Assembly (NCBI GenBank): GCA_938035125.1
Contig: CALHNS010000009.1
Coordinates: 1-64,000, forward strand
Direction of reading: 5' to 3'
Source of the DNA: an uncultured Granulosicoccaceae bacterium
Lineage (GTDB): Bacteria > Pseudomonadota > Gammaproteobacteria > Granulosicoccales > Granulosicoccaceae
DNA: 64,000 bases
Shown piece by piece: positions 31,772 to 63,872 of this stretch. A program made the translations under genes and the position numbers. Below the pieces are notes generated by a model. The model saw only the letters and a list, made by a program, of their open reading frames with translations. It was not told where the DNA came from and searched no databases. Positions within the stretch are counted from its first letter, which is position 1; every line of letters begins with the position of its first letter.

Positions 31772-32893
31772 TTACTGCGGTAATACGGTAACTCGAAGTA
31801 CCTGACCATTCAAACTGACCGATTGTCCGCGTCCGCCAATGCTGCTTACGCGAGTATTCGGATCAGGATCACCTGTGTTAGGCGCGCTCTGACGCTGCAC
31901 TTGATTTGCACCGGTGCCAGGCTCTTCATCTGCTTCAGTACCTGCATCCCAAATAGCGAATTCGCTGCTAGGGATTTCACCGGAAATAGGCTGGCCACCG
32001 ACGAATAGATCAAGGCTGTTATCTGCATCAGTTGCTGTATAGAACCAGTCATTAGATGGAATGAACATGGTGACGAAATCTAGCTTGTCACCATCAACGG
32101 CTTGAATGGTGAATTCATACGAACCACCTGGGCCAATAGGACCTGGCTCAGAAGCGCCCGTAGGGATATTAAACACCGCAGAACCTGGAACAGCCGAGGG
32201 GTAAGGCCCAACGTTACCATCTTCAGCCACCGCTTCTAAGCCTGCATTAGCAGCATCCCGAGGTAATAACAGAGGGCTATCTGCAACTTCTCTGTGAACT
32301 ATATAAGCGCCTGGAGATAAAGGAACGGGTTGCGTAGTTCCATCGGAAAGAACGTTAAGCGTCTCGGGCGTTGAAATATTTTCGAGACGAACAATAAAAG
32401 TTGTGGTGTTGCCCGGATCAATTTGACCTCGAATCTCGCCTGGGCCGTTCGCTTCGGTGTGAACATTGAAATAAAGCTCGCCTCGATTGAATGCGCCTAT
32501 TTCATCGGCCGAAAGGGGTGCGGCATCGGCAGGAACACTCCACGTGCTACCACCGTCATCAGAAGTTAACCCAACTAGAACGGGGCCGGTGGAACCTGAA
32601 AATGCGCGATGAATATGAACCGCCATGGCAGGCCCAGTTAAATTACTGACACCCAAAGTTGCTGTGACATTGCCGTTGTCATCCACAGAAACTTCTGCAG
32701 ATCCTGATGCGCCTGCAGGCACACCTACTGGGGCAGGAATTTCCTGGGAAGCATCCAGGCTTACCGAAATGCCTCGTTCTGCAATCTCTTCAGTCAGTAC
32801 GTTGTTATCGTCATTATCGTTGCTACTGCAAGCACCGAGGGCCAATAACAATGAAAGTGCACAAGCACTTTTAGTCGTTCGCAAATGTTTCAT
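31772..32893 (-). CDS. Lipoprotein with CHRD-like and spondin-N-like domains
   Basis: Lipobox LALGAC; CHRD-like segment (AMAVHIHRAFSGSTGPVLVGL...GELYFNVHTEANGPGEIRGQI) then spondin-like segment (FIVRLENISTPETL...FVTMFIPSNDWFYT); start at MKHLRTTK. Confidence 0.8.
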   Translation of the reverse strand: MKHLRTTKSACALSLLLALGACSSNDNDDNNVLTEEIAERGISVSLDASQEIPAPVGVPAGASGSAEVSVDDNGNVTATLGVSNLTGPAMAVHIHRAFSGSTGPVLVGLTSDDGGSTWSVPADAAPLSADEIGAFNRGELYFNVHTEANGPGEIRGQIDPGNTTTFIVRLENISTPETLNVLSDGTTQPVPLSPGAYIVHREVADSPLLLPRDAANAGLEAVAEDGNVGPYPSAVPGSAVFNIPTGASEPGPIGPGGSYEFTIQAVDGDKLDFVTMFIPSNDWFYTATDADNSLDLFVGGQPISGEIPSSEFAIWDAGTEADEEPGTGANQVQRQSAPNTGDPDPNTRVSSIGGRGQSVSLNGQVLRVTVLPQ

Positions 32894-33311
32894 AATGTAA
32901 AACTCCAAATTTTTATATTAAAAAATCGTTATGTAAATGCAGGTTCTAACTTTTCTGCACACCGTTCAATAAAGTTTGCGAGGTAGGTGAATCAATTTCG
33001 CATTAACGATAATTAGATAGAATGATCACTCTAATTACCGATCGAGAGCTTTGTGTCGACTCAGAACGAAAAGTTCAACTCTCGAAGTCATTGGTTCGTT
33101 CGAATATGCGATAGGCGCCGCAAAATACGATGTGGCTCATATATTGGATAGTTGTATTCAGGTCATTCCGACTCCATATAAACCGCTATATGAGATACCG
33201 GGCGGTACGAGGGAACGGGCTGTACGAGATAAGTGTCAATCTATAGTCTTTTGGTCCTAGACCTATGCTGTAATAGTGCAACCGAATGCATTCGCATTTT
33301 TGGAGATAATA

Positions 33312-33919: not shown

Positions 33920-34759
33920 CTAAGGCTTCAATTCCAACACTCGGTTATAAGCATCCTGCTTAGACACATTCAAAAGCTCAGCTGCGCAGCGAGCCACCGC
34001 TTTTGGCGGCAGCTGATCAATCAAAGCCTTGATTAACGCATCAAGCTCCAAGGTGCTCGTGGTGGGCACTTGTTCACACCCTGCAATCACCAATACAAAT
34101 TCACCGCGAGTTTGATTCGAGTCGGCTTTAACTTGGCTCAATACCTCACCAATAGTGCCGTGCAACACCGTCTCAAATTGTTTGGTCAATTCCCTAACCA
34201 AAGTCATCTCGCGATCTGCACCCAATACCGTTAACAGGCTCTCCAGAGAGGCAAGAATACGGTGCGGAGACTCATACAGCACAATAGTGCTTGAATCGTC
34301 ACGCAACTTGGCCAGCCAGCGTTCTCTCGCCGCGCTTTTAGCCGGTGGAAAACCAACGAAACGAAAGCTATCGGTAGGCAATCCAGACACACTCAAAGCC
34401 GCCAATAAGGCCGAAGGCCCTGGTATGGGAGACACCTTCACGCCAGCCTGCAAACACGCCCGCACTAAACGATAACCAGGATCACTGATGAGCGGTGTAC
34501 CCGCATCGCTTATCAACGCGAACGACTCACCTGCCTGCAACGCGTCGATAATCGAGCTAACCTTGGCAAGTTCGTTATGCTCATGTAAGGATTGGGTTGG
34601 GGTTGACACACCGTGGTGACGCAATAAATTACCGCTGTGTCGAGTATCTTCAGCCAAAATTCGATCAACGCCTTTTAGAATGGCGATGGCACGAGCTGAC
34701 ACATCATCCCGATGACCAATTGGCGTGGCCACTATGTACAGAGTATGCTTTACAACCAT
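33920..34759 (-). CDS. rsmI: 16S rRNA (cytidine1402-2'-O)-methyltransferase
   Basis: LYIVATPIGHRDDVSARA, EDTRHSGNLL, SDAGTPLISDPGYRLV. Confidence 0.96.
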   Translation of the reverse strand: MVVKHTLYIVATPIGHRDDVSARAIAILKGVDRILAEDTRHSGNLLRHHGVSTPTQSLHEHNELAKVSSIIDALQAGESFALISDAGTPLISDPGYRLVRACLQAGVKVSPIPGPSALLAALSVSGLPTDSFRFVGFPPAKSAARERWLAKLRDDSSTIVLYESPHRILASLESLLTVLGADREMTLVRELTKQFETVLHGTIGEVLSQVKADSNQTRGEFVLVIAGCEQVPTTSTLELDALIKALIDQLPPKAVARCAAELLNVSKQDAYNRVLELKP

Positions 34760-36716
34760 GAATGCACAGACTCAAGCGCGTATATACCGCGCAACTCGAT
34801 TGGCGCTAAGCCTACTGCTAGGAACCGTATTGCTCAGCGGGTGTGGATTTGGCGGCGGTTTGAAACCGAAACCGGTCGATGACCCGTCTATAAGCAGAAT
34901 AACAGACGCAGGCGCACGCAGGGCTTTGCAGCGAGGCAACCCTCAGGCAGCCGCCGACATCTATACAAAGCGTGCGGCAAATGCCTCCAACGCAGAACAA
35001 CAACAAGACTATTTACTGTTCGCCGCAGAAATACTATTCGATCGTGCCTTAGTTGCTCCTGGGCTTATCAAGCTTGCAGACCTTGTCCCGGTAATGGCAA
35101 CACCTGAGCTGCAAATTCGGCGCGATATCGTGCAATCCAAAGCCTATCTTTACAGTGATGATCCAGAAGCTGCCCTACTTGCATTGCCACAACCTGCAGA
35201 CGTTGCCGACCCATTACACCAAGCAAGAGTTTATGAAACGCAAGCGTTGGCGTACAACCTGTTAAAAGACGCCGACAATGAATTGCAGGCTAGGATTGAA
35301 TTAGAAAACGCCTTAAGTGACGTTAAGATCATCGATCGCAACCACAGCCAGATATGGCAGCTGCTCACCTCGTTACCCAGAACCACTGTTGAATCACTAA
35401 CCACCAACGTAAGAAGTGATGTGTATCAAGGCTGGATTGAACTGCAGCTGGCTCATACGGCCATTGATGAAGCCTCGCGTTTAAATCGATTAGCGCAGTG
35501 GCGAGAACTCTTCCCCGATCACCCAGCAAACGATCGCTTTATTACTACTTTAGATACGCGAGAAGCGCCAACCACGATCGTTGCTGATGGTGAAGTGAAT
35601 GTTATTGCCGTACTTTTGCCCCTTTCCGACTCACGTATGGGGCGTGTAGCCGCAGCGGTTCAAGACGGTATCGTAGTTGCACACCGGCATGCTCAAAGCC
35701 GTGTGAAAACACCCACTGTAAGATTTTATGATGTGGGCGCAACACCTGCTGCCGCGCGAACAGCGTACACCGCTGCATTAAATGATGGCGCCAATGCCGT
35801 CATCGGCCCGCTTCGAAAAGAATCGGTTGCAGCCATTGTTACGCAACGCGAAATCCCTGTACCAACAGTTACGTTAAACACCGTTGATGCGGGTGTGCAG
35901 CAAGGACAGCTCAACAATCTCATTCAATTTGGATTGGCACCTGAAGATGAAGCACGATCGGCCGCATCGCGTGCCATCGGTTTGAATTTAAGGAACGCGG
36001 TGGTTTTACAAGCCGACGATTCTCGCGGTGATCGCGAAGCGCGTGCCTTTCAACAAGCGATGTATAACTTAGGTGGTAACGTGGTGCACGTTGCGGTATT
36101 ACCTAAAGATCAATACGACTATGGCAACGAAATCAAAGATGCATTGCTCATTACACAAAGTGATCAACGTTTTAGAGCCTTAAGTCGTACTGTGGGCCAA
36201 AAGCTTTTTTTCGAGCCCACCATTCGAACTGATGCTGACATGGTGTTTTTAGCCGTTGGCTCAGAGCAAGCCCAATCGGTACGTCCACAATTGGATTTTT
36301 TCTACGCCGTTGAGCTTCCTAGGCTGGGTACATCTCGCCTTGCTTCAGGCACAGATGATTTAAAAGTTAATAAAGACTTAAACAGCCTTTTCTACCCTGG
36401 CACTCCGTGGCAGCTAAGAAAATCACTTCGACAAGACCCACTTCGACAAGAGATTGTGGCGAACTTCCCAGCGGCTAGTGGCGTTTACGCAAACCTATAC
36501 GCCTTGGGTGTTGATGCCTTTAACGTGGCAACACAGCTGGATACGTTAAGCTCTGGTTCAAGACTGGACGGTTACACCGGCGAGCTGCAATTAACCTCAG
36601 ATGGCCGCATTCAGCGCTACCTAGACTGGGCTCAGTACCAAGAGGGTGTATCGGTGGGCGTGAAGCGAGTGGAAGCCCCACAATCTGCTGAATTGGCTGG
36701 TAGTTCGCCTAATTGA
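34758..36716 (+). CDS. lpoA: Penicillin-binding protein activator LpoA-like lipoprotein
   Basis: Lipobox LLSGC, C-terminal periplasmic-binding-like fold (VIAVLLPLSDSRMGRVAAAVQDGI); rsmI/lpoA/yraN context. Confidence 0.88.
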   Translation: MNAQTQARIYRATRLALSLLLGTVLLSGCGFGGGLKPKPVDDPSISRITDAGARRALQRGNPQAAADIYTKRAANASNAEQQQDYLLFAAEILFDRALVAPGLIKLADLVPVMATPELQIRRDIVQSKAYLYSDDPEAALLALPQPADVADPLHQARVYETQALAYNLLKDADNELQARIELENALSDVKIIDRNHSQIWQLLTSLPRTTVESLTTNVRSDVYQGWIELQLAHTAIDEASRLNRLAQWRELFPDHPANDRFITTLDTREAPTTIVADGEVNVIAVLLPLSDSRMGRVAAAVQDGIVVAHRHAQSRVKTPTVRFYDVGATPAAARTAYTAALNDGANAVIGPLRKESVAAIVTQREIPVPTVTLNTVDAGVQQGQLNNLIQFGLAPEDEARSAASRAIGLNLRNAVVLQADDSRGDREARAFQQAMYNLGGNVVHVAVLPKDQYDYGNEIKDALLITQSDQRFRALSRTVGQKLFFEPTIRTDADMVFLAVGSEQAQSVRPQLDFFYAVELPRLGTSRLASGTDDLKVNKDLNSLFYPGTPWQLRKSLRQDPLRQEIVANFPAASGVYANLYALGVDAFNVATQLDTLSSGSRLDGYTGELQLTSDGRIQRYLDWAQYQEGVSVGVKRVEAPQSAELAGSSPN

Positions 36717-36822
36717 TCTGTGGCTTACATAAAATCGCGCAAAACTAGGTAATGTGTGGCTTGTGAGTTAATTCAGTGCTTTGGGTGGCCGATGCACTGC
36801 TAAAGCGGTGGTTAATTTCTCC

Positions 36823-38526
36823 ATGCCAATTTCAGAAGCTGATAACAGACCAAAGATAGCCAGGCGTTCAGCCGATGATGTCATGACGTTAGAGCGCATG
36901 GGGTCATTCCATCAATGTCGCTTAAGTTTCATGCGACAGCTAACACGGCGCATGGCAGCAGAGCAATGGCAATTCAGCCGCCCTCATTTCAACATAGATG
37001 AAAACGGCGTGGGCTATGCGGTTTATACCGCAGCCTATCCCGGCGGCAAGGCATCGTTAGTTGCCTTCGCTCATGATCTGCCCGACGAGCTAAGATCTGA
37101 TCGTGTAATCGCCGAGCAATGGGACACCACCTTTTCATTATTCAACGGCGAGCCAACGGCCGAAGACATTCAACGCTTACAAAACAATGTGCCCTTGCAA
37201 GAAGCTGGGCGCGTTAGTGAATCTGAACTCACCCTCTCAAGGGCAAATCGATCCGTTCGCCTTTGGGAACACGTTGTGGATGCCTTATCGCAAGGCAATC
37301 AACCGAATGAACAAGCCTTACACGATGTGGGTTACTTAATGCGCACAACGGCTGTATACGGTTCGGGAAAATTCGGTGCAGCCGACAGAGAACAACTTAA
37401 GAGCGACTTAAGTAATCCTAATACATTTAAAGCGCCATTTTCCGTTGAGATGTTAACCGTTTATTTAATTCGCACCTTTGTTAGAGATTTGGTTAATCAT
37501 GCTGCGTTTTGCAAAGGCCGTGAGAACGCGATTGAACTAAGCCCAGACTTAGCTCGTGGGTTAGGCATTGGTAATTCCACTGGTTTAGGCATGGCGCCAT
37601 TTTTAATAAACCACCCCGTGCTTATAAGCAATTGGATTTCAGCTAAAGAAGAGGCTATAGCCCGTGTGCGTTCCATTGAACAAGTAACCGATGATGATGT
37701 TAAAAGCGTCTTTATTTTATTGAAACGTATGCAATTACTAACTGAACGCTGGCAATCTGCGCATCCCATTCAACAAAAGAAATTAGCCGCTTTAACAAAC
37801 GATTTAGATCAAGTAGAACAGTATTTAACCCAAGCATCGGTTAACACAGCGTTTTATTGGAATGAGCTAACGAACTGGTGCGAGCAGCATTTAAGCACCG
37901 AAGGCCAAGAATGCATGGCCTCGTTAATGCTCGAACCCTACGCTGAGATGATAGACGGCTTAAGTGACTGCATGGACGACCCCATCAGTAGCACTCTTCG
38001 AATTGATGGCACGCAAACCATCGAAACCACATCAGAACTTATAAAAACAAGTTTCGGCTGGGCAACGGATATCAACTGGGCATCAGAAAAAGCTACCGCA
38101 CGTTGCTGGTATGTGTCAGAAGAAAAATTAGAACCTAGATTGGGTGAACGATACGAAGAACCCATCAATGATTATGAACAACCACTAGCGCCAGCGCGTG
38201 ATGCGGTTGCTGCATTAAACGCGATGCAGTCTTGGGATAATAAAAAAAGAGTGGCCGAATTTTTAGTGGTACACCCCGAACACAGACGAACAGTGCAACG
38301 TGCTCAATGGAGCTCAATGGCCCCCTATGGCGAAATTAGAGACAACACGATCGATGCCTCTATGCTTCCCATCGATTTATTAAGAGCAAAATTATCATTC
38401 TTTGGCGCTACTCGATTCGACCCGCGATCGGATCGCTGGGTGCGTATTTGCTTATACCCTGGTGCACCCTACCCTGAGGAACTCAACACCGATAATGCCG
38501 ATCTTTGGATATACCCTGATGCTTGA
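36823..38526 (+). CDS. Uncharacterised protein (581-aa ORF from 36781; about 567 aa from the ATG at 36823)
   Basis: Intact ORF with coding character; Gly-rich LARGLGIGNSTGLGMAPFLINHPV; overlaps the next gene by 4 nt; no family recognised. Confidence 0.8.
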   Translation: MPISEADNRPKIARRSADDVMTLERMGSFHQCRLSFMRQLTRRMAAEQWQFSRPHFNIDENGVGYAVYTAAYPGGKASLVAFAHDLPDELRSDRVIAEQWDTTFSLFNGEPTAEDIQRLQNNVPLQEAGRVSESELTLSRANRSVRLWEHVVDALSQGNQPNEQALHDVGYLMRTTAVYGSGKFGAADREQLKSDLSNPNTFKAPFSVEMLTVYLIRTFVRDLVNHAAFCKGRENAIELSPDLARGLGIGNSTGLGMAPFLINHPVLISNWISAKEEAIARVRSIEQVTDDDVKSVFILLKRMQLLTERWQSAHPIQQKKLAALTNDLDQVEQYLTQASVNTAFYWNELTNWCEQHLSTEGQECMASLMLEPYAEMIDGLSDCMDDPISSTLRIDGTQTIETTSELIKTSFGWATDINWASEKATARCWYVSEEKLEPRLGERYEEPINDYEQPLAPARDAVAALNAMQSWDNKKRVAEFLVVHPEHRRTVQRAQWSSMAPYGEIRDNTIDASMLPIDLLRAKLSFFGATRFDPRSDRWVRICLYPGAPYPEELNTDNADLWIYPDA

Positions 38527-39296
38527 TAACCCTTAGCGGCAAACGAACAGTGAATACGTCTATAAACGAAGTGGCTGCGTTAGCCCGAAAAGCTGCAAAA
38601 GGCGCTGGATACTCTTGGTCAATGGCTGATGAAGTCGCTTTTGCAACCACTTGGTTGTGCCGAAACGGTGTTGAAGCTGCCAGCATGGTCGCCACCCACT
38701 TAGATCAAATCAGCAACATCGGCGTTGATGCCTTAAAACTCAGTTCGCTAACTTTTCCTTGGCGCGGCACTGAGAAAGGGCTGTGTTCGGTATCAGCAGG
38801 TGCCGTTTTTTCAGATCTTGCAACTGAACCCGATGTGCAATCTACAGAGCTTATTGATGTCGTGTCGCCCATGCTATTAATTCCCTTTGTGGCGTATGCC
38901 AGCCAACGGTTGGTAAAACACCACAACTCATTAACAATTGAAGATGCTAACAGCAATAAATTAGCCTGCCTATCATCAGTGAATTGCGATTCATTCAGTG
39001 CAAACATTGCAGCTGTTGAAAATCATGCCTGGCTGCATGGCTTAACACGACATAACGCATCGGATACGAAAAGCGAATTAATATCAGATAAAAAATTATC
39101 TGCAGGTATTACTCACTGCACGATGAAAACCTGCGCTATTGAAGCACTCAATGACAACCCCAAGCCTGCGCGCCATCGGCTGGATATTCCATCAGATACG
39201 CTTGATAAACTGAATCATTACGCAAGCCTAACTTACGCTCCAGCAACTGAAGCTTCCAGAGAAGGTGCCGGCGCAGGAACAACGGACAACGATTAA
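38523..39296 (+). CDS. DUF3726-like protein
   Basis: N-terminal SINEVAALARKAAKGAGYSWSMADEVAFATTWLCRNGVEA pattern; overlaps the upstream ORF. Confidence 0.6.
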   Translation: MITLSGKRTVNTSINEVAALARKAAKGAGYSWSMADEVAFATTWLCRNGVEAASMVATHLDQISNIGVDALKLSSLTFPWRGTEKGLCSVSAGAVFSDLATEPDVQSTELIDVVSPMLLIPFVAYASQRLVKHHNSLTIEDANSNKLACLSSVNCDSFSANIAAVENHAWLHGLTRHNASDTKSELISDKKLSAGITHCTMKTCAIEALNDNPKPARHRLDIPSDTLDKLNHYASLTYAPATEASREGAGAGTTDND

Positions 39297-39349: not shown

Positions 39350-39790
39350 ATGAACCGTACTAAATCATCAACCCCTGATAACCACAAAAAGGGCCGCTGG
39401 GCTGAGCTTTTAACTGAACGTTGGTTAAAATCAAAAGGGCTAACCCCGCACTCAAGAAACTACCACCGACGTTTAGGCGAAATTGATTTAGTGCTGCGCG
39501 ACAACAGCAAGAACACTTGGGTGTTTGTGGAAGTAAAATATCGAGGATTGCGGGCAAAGGTATCAGGTATTGATGCCATTACCGCCGGTAAAAAAAGACG
39601 GCTGCAGAAAACGGCTGAATTATTTCTGCAACGTCAGCATGACCAAACCAGCGCAGCCCGCATCGATGTAGTGGTAATCACGCATGAATCCAACCTTTGT
39701 GAAAACAATCCGCCTTATCTTGATTACGGCCATGTTCACGATGTACTTGGCGAGCATTCCCTACATTGGATTCAGAACGCAATTGAATAA
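39350..39790 (+). CDS. yraN: YraN family (UPF0102) endonuclease-like protein
   Basis: GRWAELLTERWLKSKGLTPHSRNYHRRLGEIDLVLRD...VFVEVKYR. Confidence 0.93.
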   Translation: MNRTKSSTPDNHKKGRWAELLTERWLKSKGLTPHSRNYHRRLGEIDLVLRDNSKNTWVFVEVKYRGLRAKVSGIDAITAGKKRRLQKTAELFLQRQHDQTSAARIDVVVITHESNLCENNPPYLDYGHVHDVLGEHSLHWIQNAIE

Positions 39791-45890: not shown

Positions 45891-46589
45891 ATGGTGGAAC
45901 GATTCCTACAAAAAGCACGCAAACTCAATGTTCTTCGGCACATCCGCGGAATAAAGAGCCGTGATTTCTCGCTTATAGCCAGCAATTGCACAGGCACCTT
46001 GCCCTATCGCTTTTTGGATATGCCTCATTTATCACCCACCGTAAACCTGTTTTTCTTTGCACCGGATTACTTAAAGTTTGCCTCTCGACTAGAGCATTAT
46101 CTTGCACAGCCATTGCAATTCATAGAAACTTCTAAGTACGCAAAGGGCCGCGAAACGCACAGTAAGCATGGGCATTACCCCATCGGCTTACTTGATGACA
46201 TTGAAATTCATTTCATGCATTACAGCAGCGAAGAAGACGCCAAAACGAAATGGGAAAGACGTTCAGCACGTATCAACTTTAATAACTTGATTTTTACGTT
46301 CACCGACAAAGATCTTTGCACGCCTGAATTAATCCAGCAATTTAATCAACTGCCTGGACGTAAGCTTCTGCTTACCTCTAAGCCCATGCCGTGGATTCCA
46401 TGCGCCGTGCCAGTGCCTGCGTATCGAGGCTGCAGTGAGATCGGTGATGCTTACACACGTTATGACCACCTAACCCATGTAAATTATCGCGGGCTGGTCG
46501 ATGGCCCAGAAGTTATTCAACCCGACGTGTTATCTCAAGTTAGCCTGAGTACTAACGAACCCTCGCTGGGCGGACCGATCAGCAGCTGA
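45891..46589 (+). CDS. DUF1919-like protein (exopolysaccharide-associated family)
   Basis: LIASNCTGTLPYRFLDMPHLSPTVNLFFFAPDYLKF...YPIGLLDDIEIHFMHYSSEEDAKTKWERRSARIN. Confidence 0.75.
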   Translation: MVERFLQKARKLNVLRHIRGIKSRDFSLIASNCTGTLPYRFLDMPHLSPTVNLFFFAPDYLKFASRLEHYLAQPLQFIETSKYAKGRETHSKHGHYPIGLLDDIEIHFMHYSSEEDAKTKWERRSARINFNNLIFTFTDKDLCTPELIQQFNQLPGRKLLLTSKPMPWIPCAVPVPAYRGCSEIGDAYTRYDHLTHVNYRGLVDGPEVIQPDVLSQVSLSTNEPSLGGPISS

Positions 46590-48806
46590 ACCCAGTAGTA
46601 CGCTTGCCAAACTCGCAAGCCACACCCACGACATAGCACCACCACTGGTTTGCGGTGAATTAAACGATACCGGACTACCCGTACCCACACTTGAATTAAA
46701 CGTGGTGTTAGTACCTGAGTTCGTATTAACCGCCACAAGATCGCCGCTAATATTTTGCTGAATACCCATATTCAACGCCACCCCGTTATTCGCAGGTGTG
46801 GCATCTAACACCCCAACCGCATTGACAACGGCTGTAAGCCTTGGCAAGCCTTCCGATGCGAACGGAAAAGAGATTTCTGCAACCGATTTAGGCGCTATTG
46901 ACGACAATCGACACTCAGCGCTACCCAAGGTGGTGGGTGTACAAACCTCAGGCCATTCGACCGATGCGGTGCTGTCCACTTCTACATCCAACACAGCGGA
47001 TGCTGGATAGCTTGAATCGTTGTTGGTGACACCCACTTGCACCGTGTTGCCAAAGTGCTGAAGCCCTAGTGATAAATCTAATGCGGGCAAAAAGCAGGAA
47101 CGACTGCGCGAATTAACAATACTACTTTGGCTGCATGTAGACATGGTTGTGGCCGTAAAACCTGAAATACGCGGCGACATCAACATACCGTTTTGTCCTG
47201 CGCATTCGGTATCGGTATCGTGTTGCGCACCCAGTGAATGCCCAAGCTCATGAGTTAACAATACATCAGTAAAACTTGATGGCGTGGTAACGCCAACATC
47301 ATAACCATCGGTTCGACAAGCTGTATCAATCCACGCCAAACCGAGTGTAATGTCGGTTTTCGGGTTGCCAGTAAATAAATAAACCAATCCGCTTTCGCTA
47401 AACAAGGTTCTCTTGTTCAATCGATAATCACGAAAATTTCTTAGCATCTGCTCTAAGGTTGATGGCCCTATCGCCATTGGGTCAGTAACCGATCCATCGT
47501 GCACGATGGTTTCGTTCAATCGAATGGTTAAACCTAACGGACGGTAAATGGCGTCGGCAACGTTCAACCCATTGATTGCATGAACCAAAGCTTCACCATT
47601 GTAGTAACGGTTGTATTGGCTATCGATAACCACCGACATGGGCACAATTTGCATATCTGTGCGAGAGGACGAGCGTTTACTCGAACGCTTAGATTGGTTA
47701 GATATCTCTAACGGCGTAGGTAAACTATCCAGCATTAACGGCAGTTCTTCTTCCGAACCGCCTAATTGTATTTTCGCGCCAGCGCGATTTTTCGGCTGAT
47801 AATAATCCAAAGTACCGATAAGATCCTCAGGGTGTAATCGATGTCGCTTACCGTTTCTCATCACAACACCATGAATGTCATTGTTGGACAATACAACACG
47901 CGCCCAAGAATCGGACTCACCATTGACATAGCCTGAATACACACCCACTGAAGGTGGCACGATGGAGCGAAGCTGCGCATCGAACCATTCGGATGATTGC
48001 GTTAGCGAACTGGGTTGCAACACTAAATCCAATTCAACTCCCCCAACCAAAACGCTTAGGCTTAGTTGATTTTCGTTTATCTCATTGCGTTTTGATAACG
48101 TGGAAGAACGATTGCGTTGCGTAGATAAAATTTCCAATCGGCGATCGGCTCGATCAAACCAATAACGCGATAAAACGTTACCTCGGGCCACACGAACACC
48201 GAAGGGCAAGGTCATACTGGTGTGCCGGTCACGAAGTGCTGTAAATAACGCTACAGCGGTTTGGGTTTGACCCGACTGTTCATGAGCAATCGCGTTCAGA
48301 TAATCGGCCGCATCCAAATAAGCCGTATCGGGTGCGCGCTGTTTTAATTCGGCAATATGCGCACGAGCGGTGTCGTAATCGAATCGCTCCATAAGATGCA
48401 CATAGGCCATTAAATATATAGCATCATCAACCAAAGAAGACGATGGGGCCTCGATGACTAAATCACGCAAATACTCCAACGCTTTATCAGGATTACCTGC
48501 ATCACGCTCATCTAATGCGTACAAAAACGTTAACAGCTCACTGCCTGCAATATCGGCTTCGTGCAACACGGCAATTCTGGTTTTAACGCCAGCAATATTT
48601 GAAAAATTAGGATACTGACGCTGTAGGTATCGAAGTTCTTGCAGAGCTTGCTTGAACTGCCCAAGACTAATATTGGCTTTGGCATTTTGGTAGGCCACCG
48701 AAGCGGCCTGCTCATTAGCAACAACAGGGGCCGCTTGGAGCAGCCCTGCCGCGAGAAACAGCCCCAATACCAGCCTTGTTAAGCAGGAATGCAACCGGGT
48801 CATCAC
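46530..48806 (-). CDS. Secreted reprolysin/M12-like zinc metalloprotease with TPR-like N-terminus and GlyGly-CTERM-like tail
   Basis: Signal peptide, HELGHSLGAQHD zincin motif, propeptide-like YSGYVNGESDSWARVVLS, C-terminal GG + hydrophobic segment. Confidence 0.82.
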   Translation of the reverse strand: MMTRLHSCLTRLVLGLFLAAGLLQAAPVVANEQAASVAYQNAKANISLGQFKQALQELRYLQRQYPNFSNIAGVKTRIAVLHEADIAGSELLTFLYALDERDAGNPDKALEYLRDLVIEAPSSSLVDDAIYLMAYVHLMERFDYDTARAHIAELKQRAPDTAYLDAADYLNAIAHEQSGQTQTAVALFTALRDRHTSMTLPFGVRVARGNVLSRYWFDRADRRLEILSTQRNRSSTLSKRNEINENQLSLSVLVGGVELDLVLQPSSLTQSSEWFDAQLRSIVPPSVGVYSGYVNGESDSWARVVLSNNDIHGVVMRNGKRHRLHPEDLIGTLDYYQPKNRAGAKIQLGGSEEELPLMLDSLPTPLEISNQSKRSSKRSSSRTDMQIVPMSVVIDSQYNRYYNGEALVHAINGLNVADAIYRPLGLTIRLNETIVHDGSVTDPMAIGPSTLEQMLRNFRDYRLNKRTLFSESGLVYLFTGNPKTDITLGLAWIDTACRTDGYDVGVTTPSSFTDVLLTHELGHSLGAQHDTDTECAGQNGMLMSPRISGFTATTMSTCSQSSIVNSRSRSCFLPALDLSLGLQHFGNTVQVGVTNNDSSYPASAVLDVEVDSTASVEWPEVCTPTTLGSAECRLSSIAPKSVAEISFPFASEGLPRLTAVVNAVGVLDATPANNGVALNMGIQQNISGDLVAVNTNSGTNTTFNSSVGTGSPVSFNSPQTSGGAMSWVWLASLASVLLGSAADRSAQRGFVSTQANLR

Positions 48807-59784: not shown

Positions 59785-61359
59785 ATGAAACAGGCTTTGC
59801 AAATGAAGATGGGCCAGTCATTGGCCATGACTCCCCAACTGCAACAAGCCATAAAGCTGCTGCAACTCTCCACCTTAGAGCTGCAGACAGAAATACAAAG
59901 CGCTCTTGAAAGCAATCCCATGCTGGAAGTTAACGATGAAGAGGGAGAGGCGGCTAATGGCGCCGATGCGGCCGAAAGCGTAGAAGCGCGAGAAGCCAAA
60001 CGCGCCGACGAACAAGAGGATACCCCTAACGCCGATGTTGATACCCCCCCTGAAATAGAGCGCGAACCAGGGTTAGACGACACCATCGTGACTGAATTTG
60101 ATGCGCCGAGTAATAATCAAGACGACATCATGCCCGAAGATTTACCGGTGGATAGCGCTTGGGACGACATCTACGATTCCGCTCAGCCAACGCCCATGGT
60201 GGGTGGCGCAGAAGGCGGTGAACACCGTGACTTTACTGAATTCCATAACGCCGACACCACCAGTATCCAAGATCACTTAATGGAGCAGGTGCGTTTTTCA
60301 AATATGTCTGAGCGAGATCAGTACACCGCAGAAACGGTAATCGATGCCATTAACGATAAAGGGTACTTAACCGACACCGTAGATTCATTGCTTGAAGGGC
60401 TTAACAAAGACATTCACGATGAATCGATGTTTTTCGATCGCTCAGAAGTTGAAGCGGTATTACACCGTGTACAGCTATTAGAACCTGCAGGTTGTGGCGC
60501 ACGAGACGCCAAAGAATGCATGCTCATTCAATTGTCACAAATGCCTGACAGTAACATCGTTGAGATCGCAAAACGAATCGTGCTCGATCAATTAAATTTA
60601 CTAGCCGTAAACGATTACGCCCGAATGCGCCGTCAACTTAAAGTGACAGAACCCGATTTAATGGAAGCCATAGCGTTAATACAAAAACAAGTTGATCCGC
60701 ATCCTGGTCGCCAAATCGTGAACGATCATGACGAATACATTGTGCCCGATGTGTTTGTTAAAAAAGTGAAAGGTGTTTGGCGCGTTGAACTGAACCCTGA
60801 CATTGCACCGAAACTTGGTATTAACAGCATGTACGCCGGTATGGTGAAACGTGCTGATAAAAGTGAAGATAACAATTTCTTACGCAATCATTTACAAGAA
60901 GCGAGATGGTTCATAAAAAGCCTACAAAGCCGAAACGAGACACTGTTACGGGTAGCAACCGCTATTGTTGAGCGTCAAAGAAGTTTTCTTGAACACGGCG
61001 ATGTAGCAATGAAACCGCTGGTTTTACGCGATATTGCAGAACAGCTGGAACTGCACGAATCCACCATCTCTCGTGTTACTACCCATAAGTACATACACAC
61101 ACCGCGTGGCATTTTTGAATTCAAGTACTTCTTTTCAAGCCACGTATCCACGGCAAACGGTGGCGAATGCTCAGCCACGGCCATTCGCGCCATGATTAAA
61201 AAGTTCATTAATGAAGAAGATCGTACAAAACCCTTGAGCGATAGCAAAATTGCTAGTCGGCTCGTTTCTGACGGTATACAAGTGGCGCGTAGAACTGTCG
61301 CAAAATACCGTGAAAGTATGGGAATTGATCCATCAAATGAACGTAAGCGCTTGAATTGA
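59785..61359 (+). CDS. rpoN: RNA polymerase sigma-54 factor
   Basis: MKQALQMKMGQSLAMTPQLQQAIKLLQ; RpoN box ARRTVAKYRESMGI. Confidence 0.97.
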   Translation: MKQALQMKMGQSLAMTPQLQQAIKLLQLSTLELQTEIQSALESNPMLEVNDEEGEAANGADAAESVEAREAKRADEQEDTPNADVDTPPEIEREPGLDDTIVTEFDAPSNNQDDIMPEDLPVDSAWDDIYDSAQPTPMVGGAEGGEHRDFTEFHNADTTSIQDHLMEQVRFSNMSERDQYTAETVIDAINDKGYLTDTVDSLLEGLNKDIHDESMFFDRSEVEAVLHRVQLLEPAGCGARDAKECMLIQLSQMPDSNIVEIAKRIVLDQLNLLAVNDYARMRRQLKVTEPDLMEAIALIQKQVDPHPGRQIVNDHDEYIVPDVFVKKVKGVWRVELNPDIAPKLGINSMYAGMVKRADKSEDNNFLRNHLQEARWFIKSLQSRNETLLRVATAIVERQRSFLEHGDVAMKPLVLRDIAEQLELHESTISRVTTHKYIHTPRGIFEFKYFFSSHVSTANGGECSATAIRAMIKKFINEEDRTKPLSDSKIASRLVSDGIQVARRTVAKYRESMGIDPSNERKRLN

Positions 61360-61725
61360 GAAATTGACACCGATTGCGCACTTGAAAAAGCATCAGAAAT
61401 GATGCAGATTGTGAATAAGCCAATTAATTTAGTATTTGCAGAGTCCGATAAATAGAGTAATAAAAGAAATACTGAGTAAATAAAATTTTATAAACAAACA
61501 AGACATGTTGCCGCTTTAGAAAAATTTGCGGCAACACCTCTTAAAAGTATAAGGAACGCTTGATCGCATAATGTTTACACCGATCCGCCAATCCACCCGT
61601 CTAGCAACCACGGCATTCGCCTGTGGTTCATTTGACATAGGCATCGGTATCCCCTCCCCCTCCAGGTTGCGCAAGCAACCCCCTCATTTGTTTTCCATTC
61701 ATTTAAAAATCTCTAGGAGAAGCAC

Positions 61726-62043
61726 ATGAACCTGACCGTAACGGGACATCACGTCGAAGTCACACAATCCATGCGCAATTACGTCAACGACAAACTCGGT
61801 CGATTACAACGACACTCCGAAAATTTATTCAACATACATGTCATCTTATCGGTTGAAAAATCGCGACAAAAAGCTGAGGCCACGGTTCATGTGGCTGGGC
61901 AAAAACTCTACGCTGATACCACCCGACCCGACATGTATGCGTCCATCGATCTTTTGATAGATAAACTGGACAGGCAACTCATACGACACAAAGAGAAAAC
62001 CAAGAGTCATCACAAGCGGGAGAAAATTGATCTAGTGGTCTAA
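61726..62043 (+). CDS. hpf: Ribosome hibernation promoting factor (short form)
   Basis: MNLTVTGHHVEVTQSMRNYVNDKLGRLQRH. Confidence 0.95.
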   Translation: MNLTVTGHHVEVTQSMRNYVNDKLGRLQRHSENLFNIHVILSVEKSRQKAEATVHVAGQKLYADTTRPDMYASIDLLIDKLDRQLIRHKEKTKSHHKREKIDLVV

Positions 62044-62424
62044 AACCCTTGCTTTAACAGCAAGTCATTTGTGAAATTCAACCTTGGCGGTGTGGCCTAG
62101 CAGCTCCAGCTGGGCCATATCGCATCAACCTCCTTTTCGAACAAACTCGCCTTTATCTACCCTCGCACTATCTGCGTAAAGCCCCACTCCAGCAGGCTTT
62201 GCCCCTACTCAATGCAGCTCGCTCAGCACCGACAGACACTCTAAAATCCAGTAATTTTAGGAATTTGCAACGCTGTGGCACAAAAATTTCTATGTCTAAA
62301 TGATTCATTTTGTGTCTTGAGCCACCTGAGTTCTACTTTCCAGTAGGCGAAAGAAGGCGCACAATAACCCCATCATCACAACTTGCTGGCTCGCGCGTGT
62401 TCCGTCCGGACGGCCCTTACAGTA

Positions 62425-62964
62425 TTGACTACAAGCCAAACACAATCAGCAGAAGATTCATCAAAAGCGTCCACGTCGAATTCAGATCGAAGCGCACTGG
62501 ATCTACCTGCCCTATTGACCTTGAACCGCGTCGAGTGCGATTGCGATCTTGGCAGTAAAAAGCGCACGCTGGAAAAAGTGGCTGAACTCATGATGGACGC
62601 ATTCGACGACGAAGAGCTCTCCGACATGCACGTGCTGGATGCGTTAATCAATCGAGAGCGCTTGGGAAGCACCGGCGTAGGTGATGGGGTGGCATTACCT
62701 CATGCACGAATGCCCTCTTTAGTTGAGCCAGCAGCCGTTTTAATTTCATTAGAGAACGGTGTAGATTTTGATGCACAAGATGAGCAAAAAGTGGATTTAA
62801 TCGTGGGGCTTTTGGTTCCTGAAGACTGCAGTGATACTCATTTGCAAATTCTTCGTGGGCTTGCCATGCGATTTAGTAACCCTAATTACCGGAATGCACT
62901 TAGAAATGCTTCCACACAAAAAGAACTTTTCCAAGAAGCCATTCGACCGCTAAACGCGGCATAG
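62425..62964 (+). CDS. ptsN: PTS IIA-like nitrogen regulatory protein; start uncertain
   Basis: GVGDGVALPHARMPSLVEPAAVLISLENGVDFDA; no ATG/GTG codon upstream of the conserved region, TTG at 62425 is a candidate. Confidence 0.88.
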   Translation: MTTSQTQSAEDSSKASTSNSDRSALDLPALLTLNRVECDCDLGSKKRTLEKVAELMMDAFDDEELSDMHVLDALINRERLGSTGVGDGVALPHARMPSLVEPAAVLISLENGVDFDAQDEQKVDLIVGLLVPEDCSDTHLQILRGLAMRFSNPNYRNALRNASTQKELFQEAIRPLNAA

Positions 62965-63005
62965 CAAAGAATGCAGCCAATCACTGGCATGCAAAGGGTG
63001 ACCCC

Positions 63006-63872
63006 ATGACACAACTACTCATAGTCACAGGCATGTCCGGATCGGGTAAGTCTGTGGCTTTGCACACCCTTGAAGACGATGGATATCACTGCATTGATAA
63101 CTTACCTTCTGATTTACTGACAGATGTTATTGATCGTTTAGTCGCAACCAACAGCCGAAAATACGACAAACTGGCCATTGGTGTAGATATGCGTAGTGAG
63201 CAAGCTAACGCCAGCGGCTTATTGAACCTACTGAAGTCCTTGCGTGCGCGTGACGATGTACACACCCGTGTTTTGTTCTTAGACACAGACCGTCGCACCT
63301 TAAGCCAACGCTTCAGTGAAACTCGCCGCCGCCACCCGTTAAGCACTGATGATTCACCTCTGGCTACAGCCATAGATACCGAAGCGCGCTTATTGGAGGA
63401 GGTGAAAGCCTCGGCTGACAAAGTGATCGACACCACGTCTTTAAACCTACACGAACTGCGCGGTATTGTTCGCCATCATGAACACGCCACCGCAGAAAGT
63501 AAATTATTGGTGGTGATTCAGTCGTTCGGGTTTAAACACGGCATGCCGATCAGTAGCGACTTTATGTTTGATGTGCGTTGCCTTCCTAACCCGTACTGGC
63601 AACCAGAAATTCGTCACTTAAGCGGCAAAGACCCTGAGATTATTGAATATCTTGAGGCCCAACCAACGGTTAACGATATGTACAAACACATCAATGCTTT
63701 TTTAACCCACTGGATTCCTCATTTTAATGCCGAGAATCGAGCCTATCTCACCGTATCCATTGGCTGCACAGGGGGTCGCCATCGCTCGGTGTACCTTACT
63801 GAACGACTGGCAAAAAACATCGGCAAATCAAACGAACACGTCTCTGTTCGTCATCGCAACCTCACTAGTTAA
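63006..63872 (+). CDS. rapZ: RNase adapter protein RapZ
   Basis: LIVTGMSGSGKSVALHTLEDDGYHCIDNLP, SIGCTGGRHRSVYLTE. Confidence 0.97.
   Translation: MTQLLIVTGMSGSGKSVALHTLEDDGYHCIDNLPSDLLTDVIDRLVATNSRKYDKLAIGVDMRSEQANASGLLNLLKSLRARDDVHTRVLFLDTDRRTLSQRFSETRRRHPLSTDDSPLATAIDTEARLLEEVKASADKVIDTTSLNLHELRGIVRHHEHATAESKLLVVIQSFGFKHGMPISSDFMFDVRCLPNPYWQPEIRHLSGKDPEIIEYLEAQPTVNDMYKHINAFLTHWIPHFNAENRAYLTVSIGCTGGRHRSVYLTERLAKNIGKSNEHVSVRHRNLTS

Follow-up and report, generated by a model that had tools for sequence, protein, structure and literature searches.

The opening of an N-methylpyridine carboxylate ring, followed by the action of an aldehyde dehydrogenase and a hydrolase, is known from the trigonelline (Tgn) pathway of Acinetobacter. 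For homarine (N-methylpicolinate), a bacterial catabolic pathway was reportedly described by Ferrer-Gonzalez et al. (Nat Microbiol 11:1531, doi 10.1038/s41564-026-02313-7) in 2026, and its gene set is said to be named homABCDER, for five enzymes and a regulator, which serves here as a lead only. PMC13390433 cites a 2026 publication of a conserved bacterial homarine pathway and reports from it that Mgd takes part in homarine catabolism; in the same article, mgdABCD is adjoined by the gene for the AraC-type regulator TmaR. Ruegeria pomeroyi draws down homarine from its medium (PMC12817926). For DUF3726, the family of one of the two proteins considered below, no description of a function was found in the literature.

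The locus studied here lies in a stretch of 64,000 nucleotides (the window) and comprises the following features.

34725..36716, + strand: lpoA, LppC/LpoA outer-membrane lipoprotein (PF04348, E = 3.8e-78); flank, outside the catabolic unit
36823..38526, + strand: gene A, 567-amino-acid uncharacterized protein; can extend to TTG 36781
38523..39296, + strand: gene B, DUF3726 (PF12525, E = 1.6e-14), truncated pseudo-dehydrogenase of the Ldh_2 family; GTG 38550 is the probable start
38523..38526, + strand: 4-nt overlap (TTGA in the sequence) between the start of B and the stop of A
39350..39790, + strand: yraN, YraN/UPF0102 (PF02021, E = 7.9e-20); flank, outside the catabolic unit

The two open reading frames (ORFs) that a preliminary description placed between lpoA and yraN are both present and open, and profile matches identify the flanking genes as LpoA and YraN. 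The longest ORF of A begins at a TTG (36781-38526, 581 amino acids), and translation from ATG 36823 gives 567 amino acids; no promoter-like site was found in the gap of ∼106 nt between lpoA and A. As listed, the B ORF also starts with TTG (38523-39296, 257 amino acids), and an in-frame GTG at 38550 (B of ∼248 amino acids) matches the starts of relatives better. The sequence quoted as the beginning of B, SINEVAAL..., lies 12 to 13 residues inside the listed ORF, not at its first codon. The reported overlap of the ORFs is genuine, and the start codon has exactly this 4-nt overlap with the stop of A in 76 of 91 relatives. Elsewhere in the window are genes for a CHRD-domain secreted protein (31772-32908, minus strand), a TPR protein with a reprolysin-like (M12) metalloprotease (46530-48806, minus strand), and Sigma-54, PTS EIIA, and RapZ in the usual rpoN-type order (59785-63872).

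Twelve of 274 genomes of the class carry A, and the identical 12 carry DUF3726, always adjacent to A; a lack of co-occurrence in other genomes had been named beforehand as refuting the proposal, and A and B were found together in 12/12 genomes. One further DUF3726 hit (G201) was spurious, being below the cut-off and in an unrelated open frame of 1190 amino acids. The annotated DUF3726 protein of Mesorhizobium is A and B fused in one gene of ∼814 amino acids. These results support the earlier proposal: A and B are inherited together, share a function, and appear to be coupled in translation. At least 566 relatives of A were confirmed by tblastn in reference genomes; the best 80 of these, which were kept, are mostly from Rhodobacterales, with others from Granulosicoccaceae, Rhizobiaceae, and metagenome-assembled genomes (MAGs) labeled Acidimicrobiales. 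In the sampled Ruegeria genus, 52 of 54 genomes have A (a genus-level count). Between the window and a sister MAG, A differs mainly at synonymous sites (pN 0.22, pS 0.80) and is, judging by these values, under purifying selection. Such divergence, together with the number of relatives, argues that the pair is not a chance arrangement. The contigs labeled Acidimicrobiales (Actinomycetota) carry M19-A-B at 56-59% identity (L066, L070, L071, L074, L081, L084, and L086), and the A tree groups two of them with a Roseobacter; they represent either misbinning or cross-phylum transfer.

Protein A had been called unassignable, and we likewise found no family match in Pfam, NCBIfam, PADLOC, or PHROGs, nor any match to the PDB by profile. 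An AlphaFold2 model built from 67 sequences (pLDDT 89.5, pTM 0.91) gave no fold match among 350,542 PDB chains searched with Foldseek (best E = 0.28), and the top hits superposed poorly, with query TM-scores of ∼0.12 or less. A is thus a family with a confident predicted fold that is unmatched in the PDB. The glycine-rich motif LARGLGIGNSTGLGMAPFLINHP noted previously is present, and its core is among the best-conserved parts of the family: in an alignment of 47 diverse relatives, 48 residues are invariant, including 13 Arg, His264, Glu363, Glu371, and Glu437, as well as Gly248, Gly250, Asn251, Leu255, and Gly256 of the loop at 248-256. No cysteine is conserved across the 47 members. With one invariant His, three Glu, and no conserved cysteine, a metal site is not apparent in A; from the conservation pattern, a pocket that binds carboxylate or phosphate is plausible.

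B was correctly described as DUF3726-like (PF12525, 53.9 bits against a cut-off of 22.1). It evolves faster than A (pN 0.46, pS 0.72 against the sister), and its model (pLDDT 76.5) is reliable up to about residue 130 and once more around 220-238. The top 25 PDB hits of this model in Foldseek are all Ldh_2 dehydrogenases (probability 0.66-1.00, E 0.022-0.72, TM ∼0.4), and two less decayed B homologues (L010 and L011) pass the Pfam Ldh_2 model (PF02615) with 41.4 and 39.4 bits against a cut-off of 38.8. A profile-profile comparison of B with the Ldh_2 proteins of the cluster described below reached a probability of no more than 22%, across 47 N-terminal columns; since this match is weak, the ancestry of B is read from the Foldseek hits and the less decayed homologues, which show that B shares its fold and ancestry with the Ldh_2 family. 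The ASHG catalytic histidine motif and the NADH-binding segments are absent from all aligned B rows, including that of the window, and B is therefore a truncated dehydrogenase, very likely inactive, that has been kept as a partner.

The neighbors of A were counted over 96 loci. A gene for an M19 "dipeptidase" is found near A in 91 of them, usually directly upstream, followed in frequency by genes for an aldehyde dehydrogenase (ALDH; ∼64/96), a LysR regulator (55/96), an Ldh_2 reductase (33/96), and a BCCT betaine transporter (30/96). The usual set is LysR / ALDH / M19-like / (BCCT) / A / B / (Ldh_2). Roseobacters have the complete set of LysR, ALDH, M19-like, A, B, and Ldh_2, and the sister MAG has it without Ldh_2; annotated examples are found in Phaeobacter inhibens DSM 17395 (two clusters), Aliiroseovarius, Ruegeria TM1040, and Pseudomonas MPC6. 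The family that comes closest to the ALDH is 2,5-dioxovalerate dehydrogenase, with 478 bits, under the cut-off of 750 for that family. These surroundings make the pair catabolic, and what had been presented as a two-gene system is instead the detached core of a cluster of five to seven genes. Both clusters of P. inhibens DSM 17395 (L117 and L162) are on the 262-kb plasmid pPGA1_262, and the second adjoins DMSP demethylation genes and a RidA gene. A deep-branching version of A-B-M19 occurs on Sinorhizobium meliloti pSymB (L119, 9139-20744) and on a Variovorax plasmid (L122), with SBP_bac_8 ABC and tripartite tricarboxylate transporters; the S. meliloti locus also has a class-III aminotransferase, an ALDH, and RidA.

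The closest PDB relative of the M19-like protein of the cluster is 2i5g (E = 2.6e-53), deposited as an "amidohydrolase," which we take to be P. aeruginosa PA5396 of the dimethylglycine operon. Three metal ligands have been lost from the cluster protein, namely, both of the HxD pair and the bridging Glu, which is now Gln; IDGLQY stands in place of DGHND and FGFQN in place of the MEG Glu, and both later His and the Asp ligand are kept. Like it, 2i5g is without the HxD pair and bridging Glu of true dipeptidases. Active-site loss in two partners, B and the M19-like protein, leads to a testable claim on which protein does the chemistry. No orthologue of the cluster M19 was found in the window genome, whose assembly has a completeness of ∼92.5% and breaks off within the ALDH gene; the sole search match, on contig C15, is a canonical M19 with 25% identity and is not the cluster protein. 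The sister MAG has a solitary M19-like gene without A-B (L156, 7684-8676), 80% identical to the Phaeobacter cluster M19 and close to genes for products that, on visual inspection, resemble TIR and CYTH proteins.

In seven loci (L059, L061, L064, L075, L117, L118, and Ruegeria TM1040), a four-subunit sarcosine-oxidase-like operon (SoxBDAG type) and an AraC/GlxA regulator gene directly adjoin the cluster, near its LysR gene. The window genome has two SoxBDAG-type operons. The one on contig C22, adjoined by an AraC/GlxA gene and an ammonium transporter gene, is 64-76% identical to the cluster-linked operon (soxA, soxD, and soxB) and is, by these identities, its orthologue; the ordinary sarcosine oxidase on C35 is 40-52% identical to it (soxA and soxB). 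Given the TmaR-mgdABCD arrangement and the role of Mgd in homarine catabolism, as set out in PMC13390433, the cluster-linked operon is read as putatively Mgd type (N-methylglutamate-dehydrogenase-like), on the basis of gene order and relative identity.

A tie of the system to lpoA and yraN is not supported: the presence of A-B there is an insertion. Of the 17 genomes of the genus that have yraN, 15 have the two flanking genes contiguous; A-B separates these genes solely in the window species and one sister (2/17). Among 18 genus members, 14 have A, and the four without it are 63-88% complete. The window genome has a single copy of A. The sister MAG has both an lpoA-linked copy (∼71% identical to that of the window) and a separate LysR-ALDH-M19-A-B-BCCT operon (A copy ∼55%). 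At the end of contig C56, the window genome retains the LysR gene and ∼223 first residues of the ALDH (82% identical), running off the contig into a gap where M19 and the other cluster genes would lie; its Ldh_2 genes, with 32-43% identity to the cluster Ldh_2, are not claimed as cluster parts. In the A tree, the lpoA-linked copies fall within the operon copies of Roseobacters and apart from the same-genus G258, which suggests that the lpoA-linked copy may have arrived horizontally, with moderate support for its exact placement. The genome comparisons show the pair of the window as a relocated copy of the core pair of the cluster.

We consider it fairly probable that A and B are core subunits of betaine-type osmolyte catabolism, most likely of homarine, to N-methylglutamate and glutamate. 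Homarine would fit the N-methylglutamate end product, the betaine-type transport, the dioxovalerate-like ALDH, Ldh_2 and RidA, and the relation to C-N hydrolases, and we infer that it is the best single substrate and that the LysR-ALDH-M19-A-B(-Ldh_2) set defines the homarine cluster. The solute would be taken up via a BCCT or ABC transporter. With B as a catalytically dead Ldh_2 scaffold that holds or completes it, A would act together with the M19-like protein in an unusual early step in which the N-methylated ring is opened to an N-substituted semialdehyde; it is for this ring opening that an early role of A-B is proposed. The ALDH would convert the semialdehyde to the acid, and the C-N product might be hydrolyzed (by the M19-like protein and RidA) or reduced to an N-methylamino acid (by Ldh_2), after which N-methylglutamate would be demethylated by the Mgd-type enzyme. 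In the window genome, the A-B pair has come to lie between lpoA and yraN, away from its own cluster. An early guess, a dimethylglycine or carnitine pathway, was dropped once the Mgd link and the homarine reference emerged.

A cluster of the same kind might act on another substrate, such as stachydrine, hydroxyproline betaine, carnitine, trigonelline, or another N-methylated solute, which we regard as possible if rather unlikely. Genes for BCCT transporters, a Rieske-type oxygenase, a DMGDH-like FAD enzyme, and MttB-family proteins adjoin some clusters, and the Rieske-type oxygenase beside those of Phaeobacter and Pseudomonas indicates other betaines as well; moreover, the ALDH is similar to ketoglutarate-semialdehyde dehydrogenases such as those of hydroxyproline routes. 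However, those adjoining genes are sporadic, whereas the Mgd-type link recurs in the seven Roseobacter loci, and A is present almost throughout one Ruegeria genus, as would suit an abundant marine osmolyte. The Sinorhizobium cluster, with its different transport genes, probably serves another substrate, as does that of Variovorax; the other transporters, and the aminotransferase of Sinorhizobium, indicate that the A-B-M19 core is not tied to a single substrate.

That the lpoA-linked copy has left the pathway for a new, perhaps envelope-related role with lpoA and yraN seems improbable to us. Its separation from the cluster, its identity of only ∼55% to the operon copy of the sister MAG, where both copies occur, and the gap of ∼106 nt after lpoA, in which no promoter-like site was found, would suit such a role, but this copy retains the residues that do not vary among catabolic relatives, its place in the tree is among operon copies of Roseobacters, its location is confined to two members of the genus, and the window genome retains the LysR-ALDH part of the cluster. 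Hardly credible at all is a toxin-antitoxin, defense, or mobile-element cargo pair, as might be imagined for two coupled genes inserted between conserved housekeeping genes; neither PADLOC nor PHROGs (defense and phage) gave a match, and the neighbors are consistently metabolic. Returning to homarine, the claim of an undescribed system is doubtful, as the cluster fits, by description, the published pathway cited in PMC13390433.

In a bolder reading, possible if rather unlikely, A might be a new enzyme fold that opens the N-methylpyridinium ring without a trigonelline-type flavin oxygenase, in complex with the dead dehydrogenase B and the metal-depleted M19-like dipeptidase, and the A-B-M19 triad might be a general enzyme for C-N ring opening, put to use on different substrates in marine Roseobacters, Sinorhizobium, and Variovorax. 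Under the homarine reading, two hypothetical proteins that are widespread in marine Roseobacters would belong to the breakdown route of an abundant algal osmolyte.

With respect to known families, B of the window is a member of DUF3726 (PF12525), above its cut-off, and this family, for which we found no described function, is here traced to Ldh_2. Compared with the type-2 malate/lactate dehydrogenases of Ldh_2 (AllD, YiaK, and DpkA; ∼335 amino acids), B (∼250 amino acids) retains the helical domain at the N terminus and some of the core but not the ASHG motif and NADH-binding segments. The trigonelline pathway and the proposed route have ring opening followed by an ALDH and a hydrolase in common, but no flavin oxygenase of the TgnA/B type was recognized among the recurring neighbors of A-B, and A would fill its place. 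The homarine pathway of Ferrer-Gonzalez et al., compared by description, appears to share with the cluster the involvement of Mgd and the distribution in marine Roseobacters, and its reported number of genes, five enzymes and a regulator, also fits; in the window, unlike in that pathway, A-B lies off the cluster, between lpoA and yraN. A conserved homarine pathway has already been published, and the structural interest in A and B remains.
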